From Sulfurirhabdus autotrophica (GTDB lineage: Bacteria > Pseudomonadota > Gammaproteobacteria > Burkholderiales > SMCO01): a stretch of DNA of 64,000 bases. The position numbers and the translations under genes are program-made. Location: NCBI RefSeq assembly GCF_004346685.1, contig NZ_SMCO01000001.1, forward strand, positions 310,001-374,000, given 5' to 3'. Below the pieces are notes generated by a model. That model saw only the letters and a program-made list of their open reading frames with translations. It made no database searches and was not told where the DNA came from. Below, one piece after another: positions 41,344 to 54,283 of the stretch (within the stretch, counting starts at the first letter, position 1; each line of letters opens with the position of its first letter).

Positions 41344-42549
41344 TTATACATATACATGGTCGCGAGTATAGGGGTAAGGCAACGTTCCATCAGAAAGGGG
41401 TTTACCTGCAACGATCTGAAACAAGGACATCCATCCCCTTTCGAAAGCATGGGCTGAACCTCCCATATAGATGTGCCAAATTCGAAATTTTTTCTCACCT
41501 ATCAATTCCTTTGCTTCCTGCTGACCGGCTTCCAGATTTTCTACCCAATTCCAAAGGGTTTTAGCATAGTGTGGACGTAAATTTTCTACATCCACACACT
41601 CAAGACATTGCTGAGACATGATTTCAATTGCATCTGACACATGAACCAGCTCTCCACCTGGAAAAACATATTGTTCGATGAATTCGCTGATTCCGCTGCC
41701 TAATCCATCTGTTCCAAGATTTGCTGCTGTGATCCCGTGGTTTAGCATCAAGCCTCCAGGTTGCAGTAACTGATATATTTTGCCAAAGTATTGGTGAAGA
41801 TTTTTCATTCCCACATGTTCAAACATGCCAACTGATGAAATTTTCTCGTATTTTTCAGTTACCGGCACATCACGGTAATCCATTAACCTGACTTTGCATC
41901 TATCCTGCAAACCACGTTTAACAATCTGCTCTTGAACATATTCATATTGATTTAGACTCAGGGTGACTCCTGTTGCGTTGACACCATAATTCTCTGCTGC
42001 CCAAAATATTAATCCGCCCCAACCACAGCCAATATCGAGAAACTGCTCGCCAGTCTTTAAATCCAGCTTGCGGCAAATATGCTCAAGTTTTTGCTCCTGC
42101 GCCAAATCCAGACTGTCATCAGGGTGTTTAAAGTACGCACAGGAATAGACCATGCGTCTATCCAGCCACAGTTTGTAGAAATCATTAGATACATCATAGT
42201 GATAGCTTATTTCTTTGCTGGCATCTACCCTTGACTGCCTTAACCAGCTCAATCCTGTCCTGCTTGGTTGAGCAATGCAGGAAGCCGCATCACAAAACAT
42301 TTCGCCTACATGAATGATGTCATGCATGCTTCCTTCCAAATCAATTTGTTGCTCAACGTAATTTTTTGCCAGCTTCCCCATGCTAGGGTTAGCCAATGAA
42401 GTTAGTGCATGGGGTGATCGCACAGACAATTTAACTTTAGAGTGTTTGCCAAGATTCATCTCTCGCTCATCCCAAAAATTAATGCTCATGGGCAAAACTA
42501 ATTTTCGAATTCTCTGCTCTATCTGGTTAAACATTTGATCACGCAGCAT
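41344..42549 (-). CDS. cfa: Cyclopropane-fatty-acyl-phospholipid synthase
   Basis: A 401-residue S-adenosylmethionine-dependent methyltransferase that cyclopropanates membrane phospholipids, often in stationary phase. The C-terminal Rossmann domain has FLDIGCGWGGLIFWAAENYGV and MYHDVSNDFYKLWLDRRM-type YSCAYF substrate blocks (YHYDVSNDFY, YSCAYFK), followed by GMFEHVG and the catalytic bicarbonate-site residues of the family. Length fits E. coli Cfa (382) with a slightly longer N-terminus. RpoS control is typical in relatives but not shown here. Confidence 0.95.
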   Translation of the reverse strand: MLRDQMFNQIEQRIRKLVLPMSINFWDEREMNLGKHSKVKLSVRSPHALTSLANPSMGKLAKNYVEQQIDLEGSMHDIIHVGEMFCDAASCIAQPSRTGLSWLRQSRVDASKEISYHYDVSNDFYKLWLDRRMVYSCAYFKHPDDSLDLAQEQKLEHICRKLDLKTGEQFLDIGCGWGGLIFWAAENYGVNATGVTLSLNQYEYVQEQIVKRGLQDRCKVRLMDYRDVPVTEKYEKISSVGMFEHVGMKNLHQYFGKIYQLLQPGGLMLNHGITAANLGTDGLGSGISEFIEQYVFPGGELVHVSDAIEIMSQQCLECVDVENLRPHYAKTLWNWVENLEAGQQEAKELIGEKKFRIWHIYMGGSAHAFERGWMSLFQIVAGKPLSDGTLPYPYTRDHVYV

Positions 42550-42677
42550 AATGAGCTCTCCTCAAGCAGTTCTCATTTTTTTATAGCCTATATAAATCAG
42601 ATATCTACCTGACTTGACATACATACTGTTGTAACATGTCAACCAGTCATTACTCAACGCCTGATGTCATGAAGCTT

Positions 42678-45332
42678 CTAGTGACGATTTCGTACGAAGT
42701 GCTTTCTTATCTCCTCCAGAAGCCCCATCCCCAAGGCCATAAGAATCATCAACAGCCAAATTTCTGCTGATAGTGGTTGAGTGCCGAACAGCATATTTCC
42801 AAGTGGTGTGTAAACAATTGCAAATATGATAGTAAGTTCGACAATCAAGCCAAGTATTAATAAAGGGTTTCGTTTCAGTGTAAAACGAAGTGAAGATTCT
42901 CTGGGATGACGGCAAAGAAATAAATTAATTACTTGCGTCATAACGATAGCAGCCAGGCAAGCCGTTGTGGCCTGTATGTAAAGTGATGAAGTTTTATTGA
43001 GCATCTCGCCATAGTGCCAACCAGCCTGGTATAACATAAAGAAAAAAATGGTCATTGCCACAGTCGCTTCCATCATTCCCAACCAGAGATAGGCCCTTGT
43101 AATGAGGGGCCAAGACAACAGTCGCTCATTTGATGGTCGCGGTGGCTGTTGCATCAGCCCACGATCTGGTCGCTCGGCCCCTAACGCAAGGGCAGGCAAC
43201 ATATCCGTACCTAAATCCACGGCCAGAATCTGGATGATGGTGAGCGGAAGCGGAATTTTGAACAGCACAAAAGCAAGGTACGGCACTATTTCCGGTATAT
43301 TCGAGCTAAGAATATAAGTCAGAAATTTGCGAATATTCTCAAAAACCGCTCTCCCCTCTTCGATCGCATTGACTATGCTGGCAAAGTTATCATCCAGTAA
43401 AATCATGTCGGCCGCTTCTTTGGCAACATCAGTACCGGCTATCCCCATTGCAATGCCAATATGCGCAGATTTTAATGCTGGTGCATCGTTCACGCCGTCT
43501 CCAGTGACCGCAACAATTTCACCCTTTCTTTTTAATGCCTGAACAACCAGCATCTTCTGCTCAGCCGTCACACGAGTAAATAATATTTCCGGGCTATCCA
43601 GTGCGATCTGTAGTTGTGCCGGGGTTAATTTGCGTAGTGCTTCACCATGCATTACGAGAGGATTTTCGGTTTTCACCATGCCGATTTCACGTGCAATTGC
43701 AACTGCTGTATGAGGGTGATCACCAGTCACCATGATGACCTTGATACCTGCCGTGCGGCATCGTTCCATAGCTTCCGGCACTTCCGGCCTGGGCGGGTCC
43801 TGCAGCCCGATCAAACCTGAGAACACCATTTCTTTTTCAGCGGGAATCTCATTGATCAACAGCTTACGATAGGCAAAAGCCAATACCCGCAATCCTCTTC
43901 CAGCCATTTCCTCCTGCGCATCGCTTACACGACGTCGGGCTGTATCATCAAGTCGCGTCTGCACCCCACTTAAATCCACGTGTTCACACAAACTCATAAT
44001 TGTTTCAGGAGCTCCCTTGCAATAAAGCCACAATTCACCACTATGTTCGATGACAACTGACATTCTGCGACGCTCGCTGTCTAAAGGAATCTCGCTAATG
44101 AGCGGTGCTTCGCCAAAATCATTCATATTTTTTGCAAACTCGGCAAGGGCCAACTCCATGGGGTCGCCAAGCCAGGTAACTTGGCTGTTATGAATACTGC
44201 GCTTAAGGCTATGGCAATACTGTGCATTACGCAGCAGTTGCACATTAATTGCGCAAGCATCAACAACATCTGGTGGGTAAAGTACGCCATCGGAAAAAAT
44301 ACGTTTCACTGTCATTTTATTTTGTGTCAGCGTGCCAGTTTTGTCGCTACAAATGACAGTAGTTGAACCCAAGGTTTCGACTGCAGGCAAGTGGCGTATC
44401 AAAGCATTCCGTTTTGCCATCCGTTGAGTAGCCATGGCTAATGACAATGTGACCGTAGGCAACAAACCCTCAGGTACGTTGGCAACTATAATTCCAATAG
44501 CAAACATGAAGTTATCCCAGAAAGGCAAACCGATAACAAAACCAATTCCGAAAAAGATCAATCCTAATATTGAAGAAAACATTGCTACCAGTTTTGACAA
44601 ACGTACAATCTCTCGCTGCAATGGAGATCCTGCCTCGCCCTCGGTTTGCGTCAGATGCGCAATCTTGCCGAATTCTGTATGCATGCCTGTCGCAAAAATA
44701 ACAGCCTTTCCTTCCCCAGATACCAGTGAAGTTCCTGCTAACAGCAGATTGTTTGCTTCAAGCGCCGAACCTATATCAGTGCCGGCTGCGGTTCTTGCCT
44801 TAGGCAAGGATTCACCGGTAATAGTCGAAGTATTTACCCTGACACCAGAAGCCTGAATCAGTCGGCAGTCAGCCGGCACATTATCGCCTTCAGAAAACAG
44901 GACAACATCACCTGGTACAAGCAAGTTGGCAGAAATTGTCTGGAGTTGTCCATCACGCATGACTTTCACATTCTGAGGCAACAAATTTCTGAGGGCTGAA
45001 ATGGCTCGCTCGGCACGATATTCCTGCCAGAACGAGAAAAAACCGTTGATCAATATAACACCAACAATTGCAGTGACGAGCTGCCACATGCCTTCATCTG
45101 GGTTTCTGAGTTCAGCAAACATCGCAAGTCCTGCAGCAACCCATAGAATCAGCGCGAAAAAATGCGTGAATTCCTTTAAAAATCTAATCCAGAGAGGTTT
45201 ACCTTTAATCTCTTCTATAAGATTGTAGCCAAATTCTCTCAGCCGCCTTTCAGCATCCGCAGAATTCAGCCCTTGTTCTGATGCCTTAAGGCTGGTCAGG
45301 ACTTCAGCAATTGGCAGGTTTGCAATATTCAT
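42678..45332 (-). CDS. P2-type cation-transporting ATPase (VPEGLL class)
   Basis: An 884-residue P-type ATPase with ten predicted membrane helices. The cytoplasmic A domain has TGES; the phosphorylated aspartate is D330 (SDKTGT), with KGAPE in the nucleotide domain and [12 protein letters not shown] in the P domain. The fourth helix motif VPEGLLPTV resembles eukaryotic Na,K-ATPase (VPEGLL) more than the VAAIPEGL of Ca2+ pumps, so sodium, potassium or calcium transport are all possible. It stands alone, divergent from the peptide-ligase operon. A second, different P-type ATPase is at 56771. Confidence 0.93.
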
Positions 45333-45564
45333 CGGCGATTAATGCATTTAGCTGTGGAAATACCATTTTTGAATTAACTATCATCAAATATAGCAGACAG
45401 CTCGCATAAAGCCGGTATTAGGGAATTTCACACCTCCCGATCTTTCCGATTACCCCAGTTCATCAATTATTTATTTTCATAATGGTAAATAAATTTGCCT
45501 TATCAACTATATTTAAATTGCGTACAAAAAAACCATTAAAAAATACATAGAAGGCTTTACCAAT

Positions 45565-46287
45565 ATGCTGCCAACTACGCTGAAACTGCCTGTCAAAATG
45601 CAGCCTCAGCCAAATGAAACCACTTGCGGGCCTACCTGCCTTAATGCGATATATCGTTATTGGGGAGAAAATGGATCACTTGACAGTGTTATTGAACGAA
45701 CACAAAAATTCGAACATGGGGGAACATTTGCAGTCTTTCTTGCTTGTGATGCATTGCGCAAAGGTTTTAAGGCTACCATTTACACTTACAACCTGATGGT
45801 ATTTGACCCCACCTGGTTTGCCAAGCCGGCAGTGGATATCGCCGAACGCCTTCAGCGCCAGAGTGAAGTTAAGAATGACTCCAGACTATTGCTTGCCACT
45901 GCAGGTTACCTGGATTTTCTGAATCTGGGGGGCCGACTTCGATTCCAGGACCTGACACGCCCGCTTATCAGGGGATTATTACGTCGCAATACGCCGATAC
46001 TGACTGGACTAAGTTCAACTTATCTTTATCGTTGCGCACGAGAATACGGACCTGAAGACACCCCGGACGACGTTCGTGGTACACCAAGCGGGCATTTTGT
46101 CGTCATAGCGGGATACAACAGGATAAACCGCACAGTCTTGGTAGCGGACCCCTATGGGCCTCACCCATTCGGCCCCACTCATGAATATTGGATAAATATC
46201 GATCGCGTATTGGGTGCTGTATTACTCGGTATCGTCACTCATGACGCCAATCTGCTAGTCATTCAACCCCAGCGCGGCAAAAAATAA
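45565..46287 (+). CDS. C39-like cysteine peptidase, first gene of peptide-ligase operon
   Basis: A 240-residue papain-like protein. The Cys motif ETTCGPTCLNAIYRYWG (C21), H177 (GHFVVIAGYN) and D195 (VADPYG) form the expected Cys-His-Asp triad of C39 peptidases, which cut double-glycine leaders of peptides. It lacks the ABC transporter usually fused to C39 domains, has no signal peptide and should be cytoplasmic. The ATP-grasp gene follows after four bases. Its job may be to cleave or transfer a peptide handled by the ligases downstream; the substrate is unknown. It is divergent from a P-type ATPase gene. Confidence 0.85.
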   Translation: MLPTTLKLPVKMQPQPNETTCGPTCLNAIYRYWGENGSLDSVIERTQKFEHGGTFAVFLACDALRKGFKATIYTYNLMVFDPTWFAKPAVDIAERLQRQSEVKNDSRLLLATAGYLDFLNLGGRLRFQDLTRPLIRGLLRRNTPILTGLSSTYLYRCAREYGPEDTPDDVRGTPSGHFVVIAGYNRINRTVLVADPYGPHPFGPTHEYWINIDRVLGAVLLGIVTHDANLLVIQPQRGKK

Positions 46288-46291
46288 TCCA

Positions 46292-47761
46292 ATGCGTAAC
46301 TTGTTCGTCGTGAATAACCCTCGGGACTGGCCACTTGAAGTACCGGGTGTGGAGGTAGTACCTGCGCGCACCTATCTCACCGATCCAGCCTATGGTAATG
46401 ATCGCTCTATCAAGGTATTTAACCTTTGCAAATCCTACCATTACCAAAGTATCGGCTATTACGTTTCGTTGCTTGCGGAAGCGCGTGGCCAGAAACCGCT
46501 TCCAAAAGTTGGCACAATGGAAGACTTGCAATCACAAAATCTGGTTCGCCTTCTTACTGAAAGTCTGGATGAATTGATAGAAAAATCATTATCAACCATT
46601 AAATCGGATGAATTTGAGCTCAGTATCTATTTTGGACAAAATTTAGCCAATCGATACGCTACGCTGAGTCATCAACTTTTTAACCTGTTGCAGTCGCCCC
46701 TGTTGCGCGCTTATTTCGTGCGCAAGCGCAATCAGTGGCGCATCCGTACTGTACGGGCTATTGCTGCCAGTGACATTCCGCCCCATCATCAGGAATTTGT
46801 GGTGAAAGCTGCGACTGACTATTTCATGGGGCGCAGACAGCACATGCGTAAACGGCCAGCACCGCGTTACGACCTGGCCATCCTGCATGCACCTGACAAT
46901 ACAGAGCCGCCATCCAATTCAAAGGCCATGAAAAAATTCGAGAAGGCAGCTGAAAGCCTGGGCTTGCAAGTGGAGTTTATCACCCGTACAGATATTGGCA
47001 GACTGCCAGAATTTGACGCCTTATTCATTCGCGACACCACTTACGCTAATCATTACACTTTTCGTTTCTCCCGGCGTGCTGTTGCAGAAGGCCTGGTGGT
47101 AATTGATGATCCCGATTCCATCCTAAAATGCAATAACAAGGTCTACCTGGCAGAATTGCTTACTCGAAACAATATTCCAACGCCCAAAACGTTGATCGTT
47201 CACCGTGACAATATTGAACAAATTGTGCCTCTCCTTGCCCTGCCCTGTGTGCTTAAGCAACCTGACAGTTCATTTTCGCGTGGAGTAGTAAAAGTTACAA
47301 CAGAAGCGGAATTGCGCACTAAAACAAGCGAACTCATGGAAAAATCGGAACTCATTATTGCTCAGGAATGGCTGCCAACGGAATTTGACTGGCGTGTTGG
47401 TATTCTGGACCGTCGTGTGCTTTTCGTGGCCAAATATATGTTCCCTCGCGGACATTGGCAAATAGTCAAACGTGATGAACAGCGGCAAATCTTAAGTGAG
47501 GGGCCTACGGTGGCTGTGTCAGTGAGTGAAGCGCCTGAGGTAGTTGTGATGACCGCACTCAAGGCAGCTAATCTCATAGGGGATGGGCTATATGGCGTCG
47601 ACCTCAAACAACAGGAAAACCGTTGCTATGTTATCGAAATTAACGATAACCCAAATGTCGATGCCGGAAATGAAGATGATGTGCTGAAAGATGCAATCTA
47701 CCGGGAAATCATGGGATCATTTTTGAGGCGCATCGAAGAACGTAAACGGGGTTCGCGATGA
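46292..47761 (+). CDS. RimK-like ATP-grasp ligase with RLAN-type N-domain
   Basis: A 489-residue protein. The first 190 or so residues match the RimK-like ATP-grasp N-terminal (RLAN) type, with the conserved LCKSYHYQSIGYYVSLLAEARG. The C-terminal ATP-grasp domain has the lysine LCVLKQPDSSFSRGVVKV, the adenine-loop EWLPTEFDWRVGIL and the metal site EINDNPNVDAGNEDD. ATP-grasp enzymes join a carboxylate to an amine via an acyl phosphate; RimK adds glutamate to ribosomal protein S6. The next gene overlaps its stop (ATGA). A role in peptide or amide bond formation is well supported; the substrate is not. Confidence 0.9.
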   Translation: MRNLFVVNNPRDWPLEVPGVEVVPARTYLTDPAYGNDRSIKVFNLCKSYHYQSIGYYVSLLAEARGQKPLPKVGTMEDLQSQNLVRLLTESLDELIEKSLSTIKSDEFELSIYFGQNLANRYATLSHQLFNLLQSPLLRAYFVRKRNQWRIRTVRAIAASDIPPHHQEFVVKAATDYFMGRRQHMRKRPAPRYDLAILHAPDNTEPPSNSKAMKKFEKAAESLGLQVEFITRTDIGRLPEFDALFIRDTTYANHYTFRFSRRAVAEGLVVIDDPDSILKCNNKVYLAELLTRNNIPTPKTLIVHRDNIEQIVPLLALPCVLKQPDSSFSRGVVKVTTEAELRTKTSELMEKSELIIAQEWLPTEFDWRVGILDRRVLFVAKYMFPRGHWQIVKRDEQRQILSEGPTVAVSVSEAPEVVVMTALKAANLIGDGLYGVDLKQQENRCYVIEINDNPNVDAGNEDDVLKDAIYREIMGSFLRRIEERKRGSR

Positions 47762-49011
47762 GTGGTAATTTGGCACTCCATGCGTTCACGGGGTATGGAA
47801 TAGAGCTGGAGTACATGATTGTTGATCAACATACCCTTGCTGTCATACCCATGGCTGACGAGCTGCTACGTATGGAAGCCGGAAGCTATGTTTCAGACGT
47901 TGCAAGAGGGAAAGTCGGTTGGTCCAATGAACTGGTCAAACATCTCATAGAAATTAAAAACCCCTCCCCTGTTCCAGCCATCGCGCCCCTTGTTGCTACC
48001 TTCCAGGCAGAAATTCAATACATCAACCGATTGTTAGCACCTCACAATGCAATGCTCATGCCTTCAGCCATGCATCCATGGATGAACCCAAGTAACGAAA
48101 CAAGGCTATGGGACCACGATCATGCAGATATTTACCAAGCTTTTGACCACATTTTCAATTGCAAACAACATGGCTGGGCAAACCTGCAAAGCATGCATTT
48201 GAATTTGCCATTTTTCAATGACGAGGAATTCTCCCGACTCCATGCTGCAATCCGGCTTGTACTTCCCATCATTCCGGCTATCGCCGCAAGCTCACCCATT
48301 ATAGAAGGCAATCTCACGCATTTTCAGGATTGTCGTATGGAAGTGTATCGCTCCCACCCTATCAAAATCCCTTCCATTATCGGCCAAGTCATTCCTGAAA
48401 CTGCGATGACAAAATTCCAATACGCTGAGCAGATACTCTCCCCCATGTATCGCGACATAGCGATATTTGATCCCGATGGGGTGCTTCAACATGAATGGCT
48501 CAACGCCCGGGGCGCCATTCCGCGCTTCGATAGGAATGCGATAGAAATCAGGGTAATTGATCTGCAAGAATGTCCACAGGCAGATCTTGCTATTGCTAGT
48601 GCTGTCATTGCTGTTGTCAGAGCCTTTTATGATAACCATTGGGCGACACTGGAAAAGCAACAACAGTTCAGCACGGAGCGCCTGGTACAGATCATGCACC
48701 ACTGCATACGCGATGCTGAAAAGGCAATGATAGAAGATGCAGACTTTCTTACTCTTATGGGTTTCCCCGTGGCAAGGTGTGAAGCACGGGAACTGTGGCG
48801 ACACTTTATCGAAGTGTTGATGTGGCATAAACCTGCCCACGATGAAACCGAGCATGCAATCTTGAATATCATTCTGGAACAAGGGCCACTTGCTCGCCGC
48901 ATTCTTCAAGCCGTTAGCGGAGATTTCAGTCATCAAAACCTGAAAGCAGTTTACCTGTCGCTTTGCAATTGCCTCGAAAATGGGCAAGTGTTTCAACCGC
49001 AACATGCCTAA
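47758..49011 (+). CDS. GCS2/YbdK-family carboxylate-amine ligase
   Basis: A 417-residue protein of the glutamate-cysteine ligase 2 fold. The start region GYGIELEYMIVDQ holds the metal-binding ExE pair; VKHLIEIKNPSP, MHPWMNP and the EIRVIDLQECP strand are family blocks. Members make gamma-glutamyl bonds, but most, including E. coli YbdK, are not the main glutathione enzyme. It is translationally coupled to the ATP-grasp gene and its stop overlaps the next start, so it is part of one operon with two ligases of unrelated fold. Confidence 0.88.
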   Translation: MSGNLALHAFTGYGIELEYMIVDQHTLAVIPMADELLRMEAGSYVSDVARGKVGWSNELVKHLIEIKNPSPVPAIAPLVATFQAEIQYINRLLAPHNAMLMPSAMHPWMNPSNETRLWDHDHADIYQAFDHIFNCKQHGWANLQSMHLNLPFFNDEEFSRLHAAIRLVLPIIPAIAASSPIIEGNLTHFQDCRMEVYRSHPIKIPSIIGQVIPETAMTKFQYAEQILSPMYRDIAIFDPDGVLQHEWLNARGAIPRFDRNAIEIRVIDLQECPQADLAIASAVIAVVRAFYDNHWATLEKQQQFSTERLVQIMHHCIRDAEKAMIEDADFLTLMGFPVARCEARELWRHFIEVLMWHKPAHDETEHAILNIILEQGPLARRILQAVSGDFSHQNLKAVYLSLCNCLENGQVFQPQHA

Positions 49012-49720
49012 GACCATTCAATTTCTGATTACTTGCGAGCACGGCGGCAATCGGATTCCCCCTCAATTTCGTCATCTGTTCACAGGCCATGAGCTACTGC
49101 TTGAATCTCATCGTGGCTACGATGCGGGCGCGCTTGCCATGGCAAAATTACTGGCCAAAACACTCTCCGCACCCTTGTTCATATCTACTACCAGTCGCCT
49201 GCTCATCGATCTCAACCGGTCTATCGGGCATCCGAAACTTCACTTTGAAACCGTGTCTCAAGCGCCATCAGCCATTCGCGATGACATATTTAAACACTAT
49301 TACCTGCCGTACCGAAACAAAGCTGAGTCGGTTATTGCCAATGCCATTAAACAAGACAAAATGGTTATTCACATTTCATCTCATAGCTTCACACCCGAGC
49401 TTAACGGAGAAATACGCAATGCTGATATTGGTCTGCTTTATGATCCAACGCGACAAGCCGAAGCTGAACTATGCTCTCGCTGGCAAACCGCATTTAAATC
49501 ACAGCTACCCAAACTGAAAGTGCGCAGAAACTACCCCTATACAGGTAAGTCTGATGGTTTCACAGCCTATTTAAGACGCCAGTTTAAGCCTGAAAATTAT
49601 GTGGGAATAGAATTGGAAATCAACCAAAAACACGTTTTCAATGGAACGCGGCAATGGCAATCTTTAAGAGAAACCGTCATCCGTAGTCTGCTGGAAGCAT
49701 TGCAAACTGACACGCGATGA
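49004..49720 (+). CDS. N-formylglutamate amidohydrolase-like protein
   Basis: A 238-residue zinc-dependent amidohydrolase of the HutG/FGase family, related to zinc carboxypeptidase folds. Seen are the ITCEHGGNRIPPQF metal motif, STTSRLLIDLNRSIGHP, VIHISSHSFTPEL and the C-terminal VGIELEINQKHV. ATG 49004 overlaps the previous stop by eight bases; ATG 48980 lies further inside the ligase gene. No histidine-degradation genes are nearby, so it probably removes an acyl or glutamyl group from a product of the two ligases. It ends the operon. Confidence 0.86.
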   Translation: MPKTIQFLITCEHGGNRIPPQFRHLFTGHELLLESHRGYDAGALAMAKLLAKTLSAPLFISTTSRLLIDLNRSIGHPKLHFETVSQAPSAIRDDIFKHYYLPYRNKAESVIANAIKQDKMVIHISSHSFTPELNGEIRNADIGLLYDPTRQAEAELCSRWQTAFKSQLPKLKVRRNYPYTGKSDGFTAYLRRQFKPENYVGIELEINQKHVFNGTRQWQSLRETVIRSLLEALQTDTR

Positions 49721-49804
49721 TCACCAAGGGGTTGCTGAAAACAATTGATAGTTTTCATCAATCCTCCGCCAAGAGATTGAATAACACTTCAAATCAACCA
49801 GCTA

Positions 49805-50080
49805 TCAGGAAGTGCCATCCTTCGCCTCGCCAGTAGCCGTTTGCGCTGTTCTCCGGAGTTCCGTCATTTTGGTGTTCATTTCATCCAGTTCTGTCAGAAT
49901 TTATCTGACAAACTCATTGCGACCTTGATTCAATTTGCCTGCCTTCGCCACGTTGCCCTCAGTGGTTGACTTCTGAACCTCTTCAGAACTTGTTTTAAGT
50001 GGCGAAGGTTCTTCCTTTTTTTGGCACCCAGTCACAGTTACGACTAAACTCAATATCATGAACTTCAATAGTCGATTCAT
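49805..50080 (-). pseudogene. Small lipoprotein gene interrupted by an in-frame stop
   Basis: GGAG six bases before ATG 50080 starts a peptide with a lipoprotein signal (MNRLLKFMILSLVVTVTGC, lipobox VTGC). After 59 residues a TAA (49903-49901) interrupts it; the same frame continues without a break for 31 further residues with coding-like, helical sequence (ILTELDEMNTKMTELRR) to TGA 49807-49805. This looks like a single nonsense mutation (for example CAA to TAA) in a roughly 91-residue lipoprotein. Alternatively the truncated form is functional. Its 5' neighbour DUF2934 and Hsp20 genes lie on the same strand. Confidence 0.6.
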
Positions 50081-50131
50081 TGCACGCTCCGATCACTTGG
50101 AAACCAACTATTCAAACTCACCCCGGACAAC

Positions 50132-50689
50132 TCATTTAAAACGAGATGCAATTTGATTGAGCGCTTTTCGCATTTCGTCCCAAGCCTTTTCAGTGCCACC
50201 TTTCAAATCCTCCCAGGCATCTTCAGTTCGCTGGCTCAATTCCTGCATTTTTGCATGAGCGACAGCCCTTTTACCCGAAAGAATTTGCAACTGTTTTTCA
50301 TAATCCTCGCGAATCTCTGCTGTAGTTTCCAATGCCTTTTCTTTTAATTCAGCAAGCTTCGCGTCCCACTCTTTGAGCTGCGCTTCAAGCTTACTTTGAA
50401 AAGCTTGTTTATTCCCCCCATTCGATTCGCTATTTTGGTGTTGAAGAATACGCTCGATTTCTGCTTCAGCCTCAAACCAGTCGTGTGAAGGATCTCCCGA
50501 TACGAAACCGCGACTTTCGGCACGAAAATAGGCTGCCTCTGCAATCATGTGATAGCGTTCTTCCGGAGTAACAGAATTTGTAATCTGAGCAGCAGAACTT
50601 GCCTGTTTTGACTTACTAGATATATTCGTTTTAGAGGTAGGGGATGAATTATTACTCTTGCTTCGGGATTTAGATTTAACTTCTGACAT
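50132..50689 (-). CDS. DUF2934-containing protein
   Basis: A 185-residue, charged protein. A serine/lysine-rich, disordered N-terminus precedes a DUF2934 motif (about 43-83; IAEAAYFRAESRGFVSGDPSHDWFEAEAEI), then a long coiled coil (about 100-180) rich in E, K and Q. ATG 50689 has AGGAG eight bases upstream. No enzyme function is known for DUF2934; it is often found near stress genes, and here it is followed by the broken lipoprotein gene and preceded by hsp20. Confidence 0.8.
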   Translation of the reverse strand: MSEVKSKSRSKSNNSSPTSKTNISSKSKQASSAAQITNSVTPEERYHMIAEAAYFRAESRGFVSGDPSHDWFEAEAEIERILQHQNSESNGGNKQAFQSKLEAQLKEWDAKLAELKEKALETTAEIREDYEKQLQILSGKRAVAHAKMQELSQRTEDAWEDLKGGTEKAWDEMRKALNQIASRFK

Positions 50690-50890
50690 AACAAACACTC
50701 CTGAATGAAATGGCTTAATAAAACCAACTCGCTCCAAGTAATAGCTGAAACATTAATAATAAAATAATAACAATATGTTATTGCGATTTATTAATGTTAA
50801 CTATAACAATTTTTCGAGCGCAAATCCATTTACAGCTGATTTACACTCGAAGTCTTACTGAACGGTCACATCAAAAAAGTTGTTTGATAT

Positions 50891-51406
50891 TTAATCGATA
50901 TTGACACTATGGCGCTTGGATTTCTTCAGTTTGGGAATAGTCATTTCCAACAATCCATCCTTAAAACTCGCTTTCGCATTGTCCGGATCAACATCGTGGG
51001 GCAGAGATACGGTTCGAGCAAATGCACCTCGTGATATCTCACACCGGTAATAATCACCCTTCTCTTCTTTTTCTTCGTGACTGGATTTACCTTTGATGGT
51101 AACCGTGTTTTCTGTCACAGAAATATCCAGATCTTTTTTATCAACACCTGGAACTTCTGCCCTTACCAAAATATCCCCATCATGTTCAATAATATCCACA
51201 CTTGGCACTTTGCCTTCAAATGCCCTGTCAAAAGAACGCAACATTGGGCGATTCATTTGAAAAGGACTCATCCATCCACGCTGTAAAAAATTATCGAACA
51301 TCTCATCCATTTCTTCAAACGGATTCATCACACGCATAGGCGCTGATTTTTGTATCTCTTTACCCTTATTTGATGTTGCCACTCCGGTTTTTGTAGTATC
51401 GTCCAT
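50891..51406 (-). CDS. Small heat-shock protein (Hsp20/alpha-crystallin)
   Basis: A 171-residue holdase. The alpha-crystallin domain (about 68-160) has SVDIIEHDGDILVRAEVPGV, FARTVSLP and the C-terminal IPK (TIPKLKK), which acts like the IxI oligomerisation tail. An N-terminal flexible segment ends in a MNPFEEMDEMFDNFLQRG motif. It binds unfolding proteins for refolding by ClpB and DnaK. The start ATG 51406 is preceded by GGAG. It is upstream of the DUF2934 gene on the same strand. Confidence 0.95.
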   Translation of the reverse strand: MDDTTKTGVATSNKGKEIQKSAPMRVMNPFEEMDEMFDNFLQRGWMSPFQMNRPMLRSFDRAFEGKVPSVDIIEHDGDILVRAEVPGVDKKDLDISVTENTVTIKGKSSHEEKEEKGDYYRCEISRGAFARTVSLPHDVDPDNAKASFKDGLLEMTIPKLKKSKRHSVNID

Positions 51407-51766
51407 GATGTATCTCCTGAATTATATTTTTGCGTTCAAATAAGGCAGTTAAAATCCACCTGCGTTTACTATAGGAAACGTAAATAATATTTCAAGACGA
51501 TTGATATATTCAACTATATAAATAACAATGTAACCAATTGAGTAACAAGTAATTTTTTAAACAAGGTTTTTTGCAATAATCAATCACAAAAATTTGAAGC
51601 GTTATCAGAAGTGATCAATTGAGAAAATCTGATACGCAAACATATGACATTTTAGAGATTACTATCAGATTTTGTAACAGATAATTAGGATTATAAAGAA
51701 GGGGAGAAAAAATCCAAAAACATGGATTTTTAACATATAGCTACAAAATTATAACTAAAATAAATG
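51407..51766 (-). other. 360-bp AT-rich gap upstream of hsp20
   Basis: No protein gene is visible. It should hold the hsp20 promoter; no heat-shock consensus could be resolved by eye. A terminator for tRNA-Val lies at 51707-51731. Confidence 0.5.
51698..51731 (-). terminator. Probable terminator of tRNA-Val
   Basis: The stem AAAAATCC (51708-51715) with GGATTTTT (51724-51731) encloses an 8-nt loop; the minus strand continues with a T-run (TTTTTTCTCC). It lies 36 bp beyond the tRNA 3' end. Confidence 0.5.
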
Positions 51767-51843
51767 TGGTAGGCGGTAGAGGACTCGAACCTCCGACCTT
51801 CTGGATGTCGACCAGACGCTCTAACCAGCTGAGCTAACCGCCT
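51767..51843 (-). tRNA. tRNA-Val(GAC), C33 in the anticodon loop
   Basis: A complete 77-nt cloverleaf with an encoded CCA. Acceptor AGGCGGT/ACCGCCT, A73, D stem GCTC/GAGC, anticodon stem TCTGG/CCAGA and T stem GGAGG/CCTCT. The 7-nt anticodon loop is TCGACAT, giving anticodon GAC (valine). Position 33 is therefore C rather than the almost universal U. A73, A35 and C36 agree with valine identity. It lies alone between hsp20 and relA. Confidence 0.93.
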
Positions 51844-51880
51844 AAAAAAGCCTGCGTATTGTAACCGAGAATTCCATTGG

Positions 51881-51917
51881 GTTCAATTAGCGAATCGTAG
51901 ATTAACCAATTGAACTA
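51881..51917 (-). other. D-arm-like sequence / hairpin upstream of tRNA-Val
   Basis: On the minus strand 51917-51902 reads TAGTTCAATTGGTTAA, matching 14 of 16 bases of a typical tRNA D-arm such as that of tRNA-Asp. The rest of a tRNA is not recognisable. The same stretch forms an 8-bp stem (51881-51888 with 51908-51915). It may be a decayed tRNA or chance. Confidence 0.25.
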
Positions 51918-52054
51918 CCTGAAAGCGATATTTTTCAAATGAATTGAAGATAAACAACAAATAGCATTTAAAACAAATCCATCGTATTTTCAATTCATTA
52001 CCATTAAAGAAACACATGAATCACAGGTGTATACAACTTATTACACAAACAAGA

Positions 52055-54283
52055 TTAATTTTGACGTCTGGCTGTCATTACATTGGGAACATGGTGAATC
52101 AACGCTATCAATCGACTTAATTGCTCAAGATCAGCTATTTCAATCGTGAATTGCATCTTGGCCCGATTATTTTTGCTTAACGTATTAACCTTGGTCACAT
52201 TAACCTTTTCTCTGACAAAAACATCCGTGATATCACGCAGCAAGCTCTGTCTGTCATAGGCATCCACTTCAACATCTACCGCAAATGCAGAGGCTTTTTT
52301 TCCACCCCACTGTGCATTAACTAGCCGACTCCGCCTTTCATCCGTCAGGCGCAACATAGCCTTGCAGTCGCTACGATGAATAGTCACTCCCCTGCCACGC
52401 GTCACATAACCTACTATGGGATCTGGCGGTGCCGGTTTGCAGCACTTTGCCATGTTGGTGAGCAAATTGCCCACTCCTTCAATCAAAATACCTGCAGGGG
52501 ATTCGGTTGCTACCGATGGCCTTGGTGTGAAAGGCTTGCTCACTTCTTCGGTTTTAGGAGCGACTTCATCCTGGATAGCAAGTATGATCTGGCGGTGCGT
52601 CACATCGCTACGTCCAATAGCAGCCAGTAAGTCTTCCAGCTTATTGAAGTGCAGTTTTTGGGCGAGCTTTTCTTGATTAAGCGATGTCACACCTAGCCGA
52701 TGCAATTCGCGATCCAGTTGCGCTCTGCCTTGCGAGACATTTTCTTCAAAATTCTGATACTTGAACCAGTGTCGCACTTTGGCTCGGGCACGGGGGCTTT
52801 GAAGATAGCCTAGACTGGGATTTAACCAATCCCTGCTTGGTGCGCCCTGTTTTGTAGATAGAATCTCAACACGCTGGCCATTCTGCAACTTGTAGTTGAG
52901 CGGCACCATGTTGCCATCCACCTTGGCGCCCCTAGTGCGGTGCCCCAGATCGGTGTGCAGGAGGTATGCAAAATCTATGGGAGTTGAGCCCTTTGGTAAA
53001 TCAATGACTTTACCCTGAGGTGTCAATACGTAGACCTGGTCCTGGAACAATTCATTTTTGAACTGCTCCATCATGTCACCGCTATCGGTTACCTCTTCTT
53101 TCCATTCCAGAATTTTGCGCAGCCAGGCAATCTTTTCATCAAACCGGGCATCTGACTTGCCACCCTCCTTATAGCGCCAATGGGCTGCCACACCCAGTTC
53201 AGCATGTTGATGCATCTCATATGTACGTATTTGCACTTCCAGCGCAAGCCCTTTAGGACCAATGACTGCGGTATGCAAAGAACGGTAATCATTGCTTTTG
53301 GGGTGTGAAATGTAGTCATCGAACTCGCTGGGTATTGGCTGCCATAAATTGTGGATTAACCCGAGCGTGGAATAACAATCTTTGACATCATCAACCAATA
53401 TTCTGACGGCCCGCACATCATACAATTCACTGAATTCAACCTGCTTGCGTTTCATCTTGTTAATGATGCTGTAGATGTGTTTTGGTCTGCCTGTGACCTC
53501 AGCCTTGACGCCTGCCGAAGCAAGCTCCTGCTTTAATTGCTGCAGGACATCTGTAATATATTTTTCACGGTCAACTCGACGTTCATCAAGCAATTTGGCT
53601 ACTTTTTTATAAAGTACCGGTTCCAGATAACGCAGGGAAAGATCTTCCAATTCCCATTTAATTTGCCAAACGCCAAGCCGATTAGCCAATGGGGAAAACA
53701 GTCCCTGGGTTTCCCGTGCAATGAATTTCTGCAAATCTTCCGGCGCATTCGCCAGACAACGCATGGTTTGAGCACGTTCAGCCAGTTTGATCAATACAAC
53801 GCGAATATCTTCCACCATCGCCAGCAACATTTTGCGAAGACCTTCTACTTGCTGGGTGTTATCGCCTTTTTTCTTGTCCTGTTCCTGGCTTTGCTGAGCA
53901 TGCATTTCACTGAATTCCTGAATTTGCTCCATACGTGAAATGCCTTCCACCAGTTTGGCAACATTCAGACCAAAACGCGTTGTCAGCGTTTCCATCCAAT
54001 CATCCATGGACTCAGGTACTGCGTGCAAAATGGCAGCTGAAATAGTTTCAAAATCCATATTCATGCTGATCAAAATCGAAGCTGCGCCCAACGCATGCTG
54101 TATCAAAGGCGCGCCTGTGATCTCTGCTTTACCGACATAGAGGGGCGTTACAAATTCACAGGCCTGTCGAAGCGTTTCAATCTCAGCAGGTGTAAAACGT
54201 TGAGAAAGAGAATCAAGCCAGGTCTGAACATCCCCGCCTTCTTTGCAGGGGGAAGAATTTAAGGTGTGGTGAACTGAAATCAT
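52055..54283 (-). CDS. relA: (p)ppGpp synthetase RelA, monofunctional
   Basis: A 742-residue RelA/SpoT-family protein that makes (p)ppGpp on stalled ribosomes. The N-terminal HD hydrolase is degenerate: where SpoT has HDxxED this has LHAVPES (86-92). The synthetase carries EFDD (320-323; the ExDD form of monofunctional RelA) and DYRSLHTAVIG. A TGS domain (about 415-475, VYVLTPQGKVIDLPKG) and a C-terminal ACT domain follow, with cysteines in CCKPAPPDPI between. It is downstream of comEC by 67 bp on the same strand. The separate SpoT expected in betaproteobacteria is not in the window. Confidence 0.97.
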   Translation of the reverse strand: MISVHHTLNSSPCKEGGDVQTWLDSLSQRFTPAEIETLRQACEFVTPLYVGKAEITGAPLIQHALGAASILISMNMDFETISAAILHAVPESMDDWMETLTTRFGLNVAKLVEGISRMEQIQEFSEMHAQQSQEQDKKKGDNTQQVEGLRKMLLAMVEDIRVVLIKLAERAQTMRCLANAPEDLQKFIARETQGLFSPLANRLGVWQIKWELEDLSLRYLEPVLYKKVAKLLDERRVDREKYITDVLQQLKQELASAGVKAEVTGRPKHIYSIINKMKRKQVEFSELYDVRAVRILVDDVKDCYSTLGLIHNLWQPIPSEFDDYISHPKSNDYRSLHTAVIGPKGLALEVQIRTYEMHQHAELGVAAHWRYKEGGKSDARFDEKIAWLRKILEWKEEVTDSGDMMEQFKNELFQDQVYVLTPQGKVIDLPKGSTPIDFAYLLHTDLGHRTRGAKVDGNMVPLNYKLQNGQRVEILSTKQGAPSRDWLNPSLGYLQSPRARAKVRHWFKYQNFEENVSQGRAQLDRELHRLGVTSLNQEKLAQKLHFNKLEDLLAAIGRSDVTHRQIILAIQDEVAPKTEEVSKPFTPRPSVATESPAGILIEGVGNLLTNMAKCCKPAPPDPIVGYVTRGRGVTIHRSDCKAMLRLTDERRSRLVNAQWGGKKASAFAVDVEVDAYDRQSLLRDITDVFVREKVNVTKVNTLSKNNRAKMQFTIEIADLEQLSRLIALIHHVPNVMTARRQN

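Follow-up and report, generated by a model that had tools for sequence, protein, structure and literature searches.

A conserved C39 peptidase, RLAN-RimK ligase, GCS2 ligase and FGase-family hydrolase gene set that may build and hydrolyse a glutamyl amide

The question raised by four tandem genes of Sulfurirhabdus autotrophica is what two unrelated amide ligases do when encoded together with a peptidase and an amidohydrolase. The genes occupy 45565-49720 (+ strand) of the window, the whole 64,000-nucleotide stretch of DNA that was analysed, and encode: (i) a C39 peptidase of 240 aa (45565..46287, +), (ii) an RLAN-RimK ligase (46292..47761, +) with an RLAN domain at residues 25-172 and a RimK/LysX-type ATP-grasp domain at about 193-485, (iii) a GCS2-family carboxylate-amine ligase of 417 aa with a glutamine-synthetase-like fold (47758..49011, +), and (iv) an N-formylglutamate-amidohydrolase-like (NFG) hydrolase of the FGase family (49004..49720, +; listed open reading frame 48980-49720). 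As listed, the reading frames are spaced by a 4-bp gap (C39/RLAN), a 4-bp overlap (RLAN/GCS2) and a 32-bp overlap (GCS2/NFG). The ATG at 49004, which leaves an 8-bp overlap with GCS2, is more likely to be the true NFG start than 48980, because the first possible start falls within 4 columns of that Met in 12 of 15 aligned homologues. A sequence-only reading of this DNA had described four overlapping or 4-bp-spaced genes of these families, and its description is borne out: all four frames are present as listed on the + strand, and each protein scores above its Pfam cut-off. Its statement that no glutathione or histidine genes surround the operon likewise agrees with the open reading frames of 42000-53500 as read by eye, two neighbours of which were scanned and identified as DUF2934 and HSP20.

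The C39 protein matches PF13529 (49.3 bits) and PF03412 (27 bits), both over the Pfam cut-off. It stands alone, with no ABC-transporter domain on its 240 aa and only C39-type Pfam matches above cut-off. The residues C21, H177 and D195, singled out from the sequence at the start, are indeed invariant in 15/15 aligned homologues, as is Q15 upstream; all four are taken to be catalytic from family knowledge. The RLAN-RimK ligase scores 172 bits against PF14401 (RLAN; cut-off 25) and 43.5 bits against PF08443 (RimK; cut-off 21), and its ATP-grasp residues K322, R368, D437, E449 and N451, presumably those of the ATP/metal site, are invariant in 20/20 aligned homologues. The ligase falls under the NCBIfam cut-offs for LysX and for the RimK family alpha-L-glutamate ligase TIGR00768 (67.4 bits vs 143.4). 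In its structure model (pLDDT 82), all listed fold matches lie in residues 191-489 and none covers the RLAN domain (residues 1-190); over residues about 191-489 the matches are LysX/ArgX (Z 26.9), RimK (Z 24.3-25.2) and D-Ala-D-Ala ligases (Z about 22-23). Since the D-Ala-D-Ala ligases, at Z 23, score little below the best ATP-grasp folds, glutamate is by fold no more than a candidate substrate. No substrate of RLAN ligases is described in the open-access literature searched; ATP-grasp/GCS2/peptidase neighbourhoods of this kind are said to have been reported by Iyer et al. in 2009.

The GCS2 protein (PF04107, 86 bits; gathering cut-off 21) retains E16, E18, H147, N149, E263, R265 and D268 in 17/17 aligned homologues, and E16, E18, H147, E263 and R265 are assumed to be catalytic from what is known of the family. 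The solved fold nearest to its structure model (pLDDT 84) is YbdK (1r8g; E 3.1e-10, TM 0.65/0.75), followed by plant GCL, with PafA at E 6e-4. Searched against the PDB, the GCS2-family profile finds nothing at E <= 0.001; at 0.0036-0.011 plant GCL alone turns up amid chance matches. With the best NCBIfam equivalog, whose cut-off is 371, the protein scores 48.9 bits, and it does not reach the cut-offs of the glutamate-cysteine ligase equivalogs. The NFG protein (PF05013, FGase, 89.1 bits; gathering cut-off 28.9) has E20-H21-G-G, N79-R80, H131, H135, E211 and E213 invariant in 16/16 aligned homologues, of which H21, N79, R80, H131, H135, E211 and E213 are presumed catalytic on family grounds.

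The family names GCS2 and FGase would suit a glutathione or histidine-utilisation pathway, the known functions against which the sequence-only reading had weighed its proposal, and the gene content of the genome makes such a pathway hardly credible. A gshA gene (PF08886) and a gshB gene (PF02955) stand side by side elsewhere in the genome of the window operon, which rules out the operon as the cell's glutathione route; among the RLAN genomes of the order, gshB (PF02955) is present in 13/13 and gshA (PF08886) in 12/13. HutG (N-formylglutamate deformylase, TIGR02017, cut-off 278.75) does not match the window NFG at E <= 0.1, and the identification of this protein as HutG is rejected accordingly. 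On another contig of the same genome (L207:6180-8623) lies a further ligase-hydrolase pair, a distant second GCS2 whose gene overlaps that of an AstE/AspA-like hydrolase.

The gene set is real and is kept across many related soil and water bacteria. Relatives of the RLAN ligase were drawn from public genomes, the best 80 of 141 being retained, and C39-RLAN-GCS2 stands on one strand in 48 of these best 80, with NFG within 2.5 kb in 38 of the 48; a C39 gene is present in 50 of the best 80. When the window and three later-fetched loci are included, the order C39-RLAN-GCS2(-NFG) on one strand is found in 52 loci, among which L204 and L205 appear to repeat contigs already counted. At least two of the 10/48 operons that have no NFG within 2.5 kb stop at a contig end; contig ends truncate L054, L070 and L101, L058 has NFG about 5 kb downstream, and L107 has C39 and RLAN with no GCS2. 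Among 349 sampled genomes of the order, RLAN (single-copy in the genome of the window operon) occurs in 13, the GCS2 family in 11 of these 13 and the C39 family in exactly those 11 (hypergeometric value 4e-19, which ignores relatedness). Co-conservation in 48 of the best 80 relatives and in the same 11 of 349 genomes is more than chance.

No constant carrier, tag or substrate gene is found in or beside the operon; the neighbours are lineage-limited only. In 14 loci, or 12 once two repeated contigs are discounted, a gene for an NMD3-like zinc-ribbon protein (PF04981) stands 10-250 bp upstream of C39 and on its strand. These operons (L033, L034-L036, L038, L040-L045, L048 and others) are all Thiobacillus-like as far as they are named, and the zinc-ribbon protein is a possible partner or substrate of the operon. 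A DksA/TraR zinc-finger gene is located 3' of the operon on the same strand in L033, L034-L036, L038-L041 and L083, usually within 260 bp and at ~3.9 kb in L039 and L040.

The operon is composed of two modules, the RLAN-ATP-grasp ligase and the C39-GCS2-NFG trio. RLAN occurs with no C39, GCS2, NFG or GNAT (of the family described below) in reach in 30 of the best 80 loci (of 141) and in 32 of all 160, four of these solo loci (L053, L057, L060 and L105) being short or cut upstream. A search for GCS2 in 26 of the 32 solo-RLAN genomes, which recovered 4/4 operon controls, found the gene intact elsewhere in 6, as a fragment in 1 (G731) and not at all in 19; thus, the other three genes are dispensable for the basic job of RLAN. 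Five of the six places with intact GCS2 were fetched, and in all five, from Nitrosospira/Nitrosovibrio, the trio is intact, together and separate from RLAN. A decaying module is seen in Nitrosospira sp. Nsp2 (L215:5873-7013), where C39 remains intact next to a 65-aa remnant of GCS2 and NFG is not seen. On the RLAN tree, a quick search with long-branch warnings, the solo label and the operon label need 6 changes each, of which well-supported branches alone require at least 5 and at least 4, respectively; partner genes have thus been acquired, lost or relocated on several occasions. The four-gene operon of the sequence-only reading survives in part: the order, and the co-conservation of two unrelated amide-ligase folds with a C39 peptidase and an FGase-family hydrolase, hold in the operons counted above, but the four are not one indivisible unit, as solo RLAN and the separate trio demonstrate. 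The trio may act on or with the product of RLAN, with RLAN keeping a job of its own. Solo RLAN (32/160 loci) and a trio at its own locus (5/5) would also be expected if the two modules did unrelated jobs and shared an operon by regulation only; this is very unlikely, however, as genomes in which the modules lie apart retain both, and all 336 sampled genomes of the order that are without RLAN also lack the C39 and GCS2 families.

Elsewhere in the phylum, RLAN has another companion. RLAN is present in 72/398 sampled Pseudomonadota genomes, and a GNAT or GNAT-C39 gene is close to it in 73 of 74 phylum loci (window left out; at about 1.4 kb in L160), the exception being L117, with no GNAT near RLAN. 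The GCS2 and NFG families are found in none of these 74 loci (6-10 kb each). Conversely, no GNAT of that family is found at the window or any operon-type locus, and this GNAT and GCS2 share a locus in 0/160. From this mutual exclusion it follows that GCS2 and NFG occupy the place that GNAT has at other loci, and the two sets may do equivalent chemistry. In one representative the GNAT comes closest to RimI, which acetylates protein N termini, at 78.6 bits (under the cut-off of 86.4). The C39 part of GNAT-C39 corresponds to Pfam DUF3335, to which the operon C39 is related by a profile match (probability 96.6, E 5.9e-10); DUF3335 is often fused to GNAT domains, according to the relevant part of PMC10318531. 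In L131, L174 and L181, GNAT and RLAN-RimK matches fall in one open reading frame, beside a separate GNAT-C39 gene. A DUF2817 gene, with invariant HxxE, NR, H and E positions that look M14-like, is located near GNAT-type RLAN in 14/74 phylum loci (L123, L145-L150, L152, L154-L156, L159, L166 and L169) and in L203. NFG as a parallel of these DUF2817 hydrolases was rejected for lack of profile similarity (match probability 0.4 in the profile comparison); thus, a strict parallel of hydrolases between the two locus types fails to show.

NFG also leads to a different system. The Anbu system, as outlined in parts of PMC6376114 and PMC5666114, combines genes for ATP-grasp, alpha-E, transglutaminase and Anbu in one operon, for which a role in tagging is proposed. 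NFG is found in 26/349 genomes of the order, 10 with RLAN and 16 without, and in 11 of the 16 (G591 locus left out) an Anbu-like gene lies no more than 3 kb from NFG. In two more (G457 and G484), alpha-E is on the same contig within 1 kb of NFG; G527, a weak NFG match, has a neighbour that by eye resembles scanned transglutaminases, and at the G587 NFG locus no Anbu-system neighbour is seen. At one locus (L188), the genes for a circularly permuted (CP) ATP-grasp, alpha-E, transglutaminase and NFG are consecutive in this order, and Anbu is close by. Such neighbourhoods would be accounted for if the window operon were a second peptide-tagging cycle of the Anbu kind, sharing its deconjugating NFG with the CP-ATP-grasp/alpha-E/transglutaminase/Anbu system and handling the same kind of conjugate. 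This is quite unlikely: the window operon includes no CP-ATP-grasp, alpha-E, transglutaminase or Anbu gene, neither alpha-E nor Anbu is found in 10/13 RLAN genomes of the order, which argues that the operon is independent of that system, and the NFG tree separates operon and Anbu settings only roughly (15/58 inner branches starred, weak support). The genome of the window operon has, on another contig (L208:5601-18323), alpha-E genes, a CP-ATP-grasp gene, an Anbu-like gene and open reading frames resembling transglutaminases, with no NFG match.

The four enzymes most likely share one pathway, and the genes look like those of a route by which a glutamate-containing peptide or tag is made and undone, a route of which we infer the substrate and the direction. 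The reading preferred here, held tentatively at a probability of about 0.4, is that the operon is a GNAT-less variant of an RLAN amidoligase system, which puts a glutamyl amide on a peptide-like acceptor, edits it and splits it again by hydrolysis. The RLAN-RimK ligase would convert a carboxylate of a peptide or protein acceptor to an acyl phosphate and then couple an amino acid, probably glutamate. GCS2 may carry out a YbdK/GCS-type gamma-glutamyl-phosphate step, by which a glutamyl amide would be added at the site of GNAT acylation in other lineages. Cytosolic cleavage of the acceptor or of the product is the role predicted for the C39 peptidase. The FGase-family hydrolase would take off an N-acyl-glutamate-type amide and thereby render the modification reversible. 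The glutamyl amide reading draws on the conserved order, the GCS2 and C39 families in the same 11/349 genomes (all with RLAN), a trio that is kept together when split, the GNAT or GNAT-C39 beside RLAN elsewhere with its related C39 and RimI-like GNAT, the LysX/ArgX/RimK and YbdK folds, and the separate gshA-gshB pair. It is weakened by the want of a constant carrier or tag gene, by RLAN without GCS2 in 19/26 solo genomes and in L107, by the 10/48 operons without NFG, and by NFG without RLAN in 16/26 NFG genomes.

Almost as likely is a small-molecule pathway, in which what the four enzymes form and turn over is a small soluble metabolite, such as a glutamyl dipeptide, capped amine or osmolyte-like compound, with no tagging of any protein. 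In that case RLAN-RimK and GCS2 would be consecutive small-molecule ligases, C39 a cyclotransferase- or transpeptidase-like hydrolase, and NFG the enzyme that salvages the product. The YbdK/GCS2 and FGase families typically use amino-acid-sized substrates, the operon has no carrier protein, and the second GCS2 of the genome overlaps a gene of the small-molecule (AstE/AspA-like) hydrolase type, all of which suits a metabolite. Less easily explained are a peptidase kept in 50 of the best 80 loci (of 141), a GNAT counterpart that is RimI-like, and a ligase fold nearest LysX/ArgX and RimK, enzymes that act on protein carriers or ribosomal protein S6. A further, rather unlikely reading is that the operon forms a second bacterial conjugation cycle parallel to Anbu, with which it shares an FGase-type deconjugating hydrolase, and that on the RLAN product a glutamyl cap set by GCS2 has taken the place of a RimI-like acetyl cap. 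If so, a terminal block could be added and later removed. The exchange of GNAT for GCS2-NFG around one and the same ligase, the split in Nitrosospira and the hydrolase common to the Anbu system offer three independent handles on the chemistry, which make what RLAN ligases modify testable by simple deletions.

The window operon shares parts with several known systems. The C39 leader peptidases of double-glycine exporters are fused to an ABC exporter, whereas the window C39 is not fused. YbdK-type carboxylate-amine ligases have PF04107 and the 1r8g fold in common with the window GCS2, at about 14% identity in the fold alignment. The LysX/ArgX and RimK ligases share the ATP-grasp part with the window ligase (Z 24-27), which differs by its extra RLAN domain and by an operon in which no LysW-like carrier is seen. 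The Anbu operon differs from that of the window in its ligase folds and in its genes, none of CP-ATP-grasp, alpha-E, transglutaminase or Anbu being among the four here, and its descriptions, in the parts of PMC6376114 and PMC5666114 that bear on them, name no N-formylglutamate amidohydrolase; it nonetheless combines an amide ligase with a papain-fold enzyme and, in some genomes, with the same NFG subfamily as the window operon. By comparison with the GNAT/GNAT-C39 (DUF3335) RLAN neighbourhoods of Pseudomonadota, the window type has no GNAT, has a stand-alone C39 of another subfamily and has GCS2 and NFG in addition, while the RLAN-ATP-grasp family is the same and the C39 domain is related.
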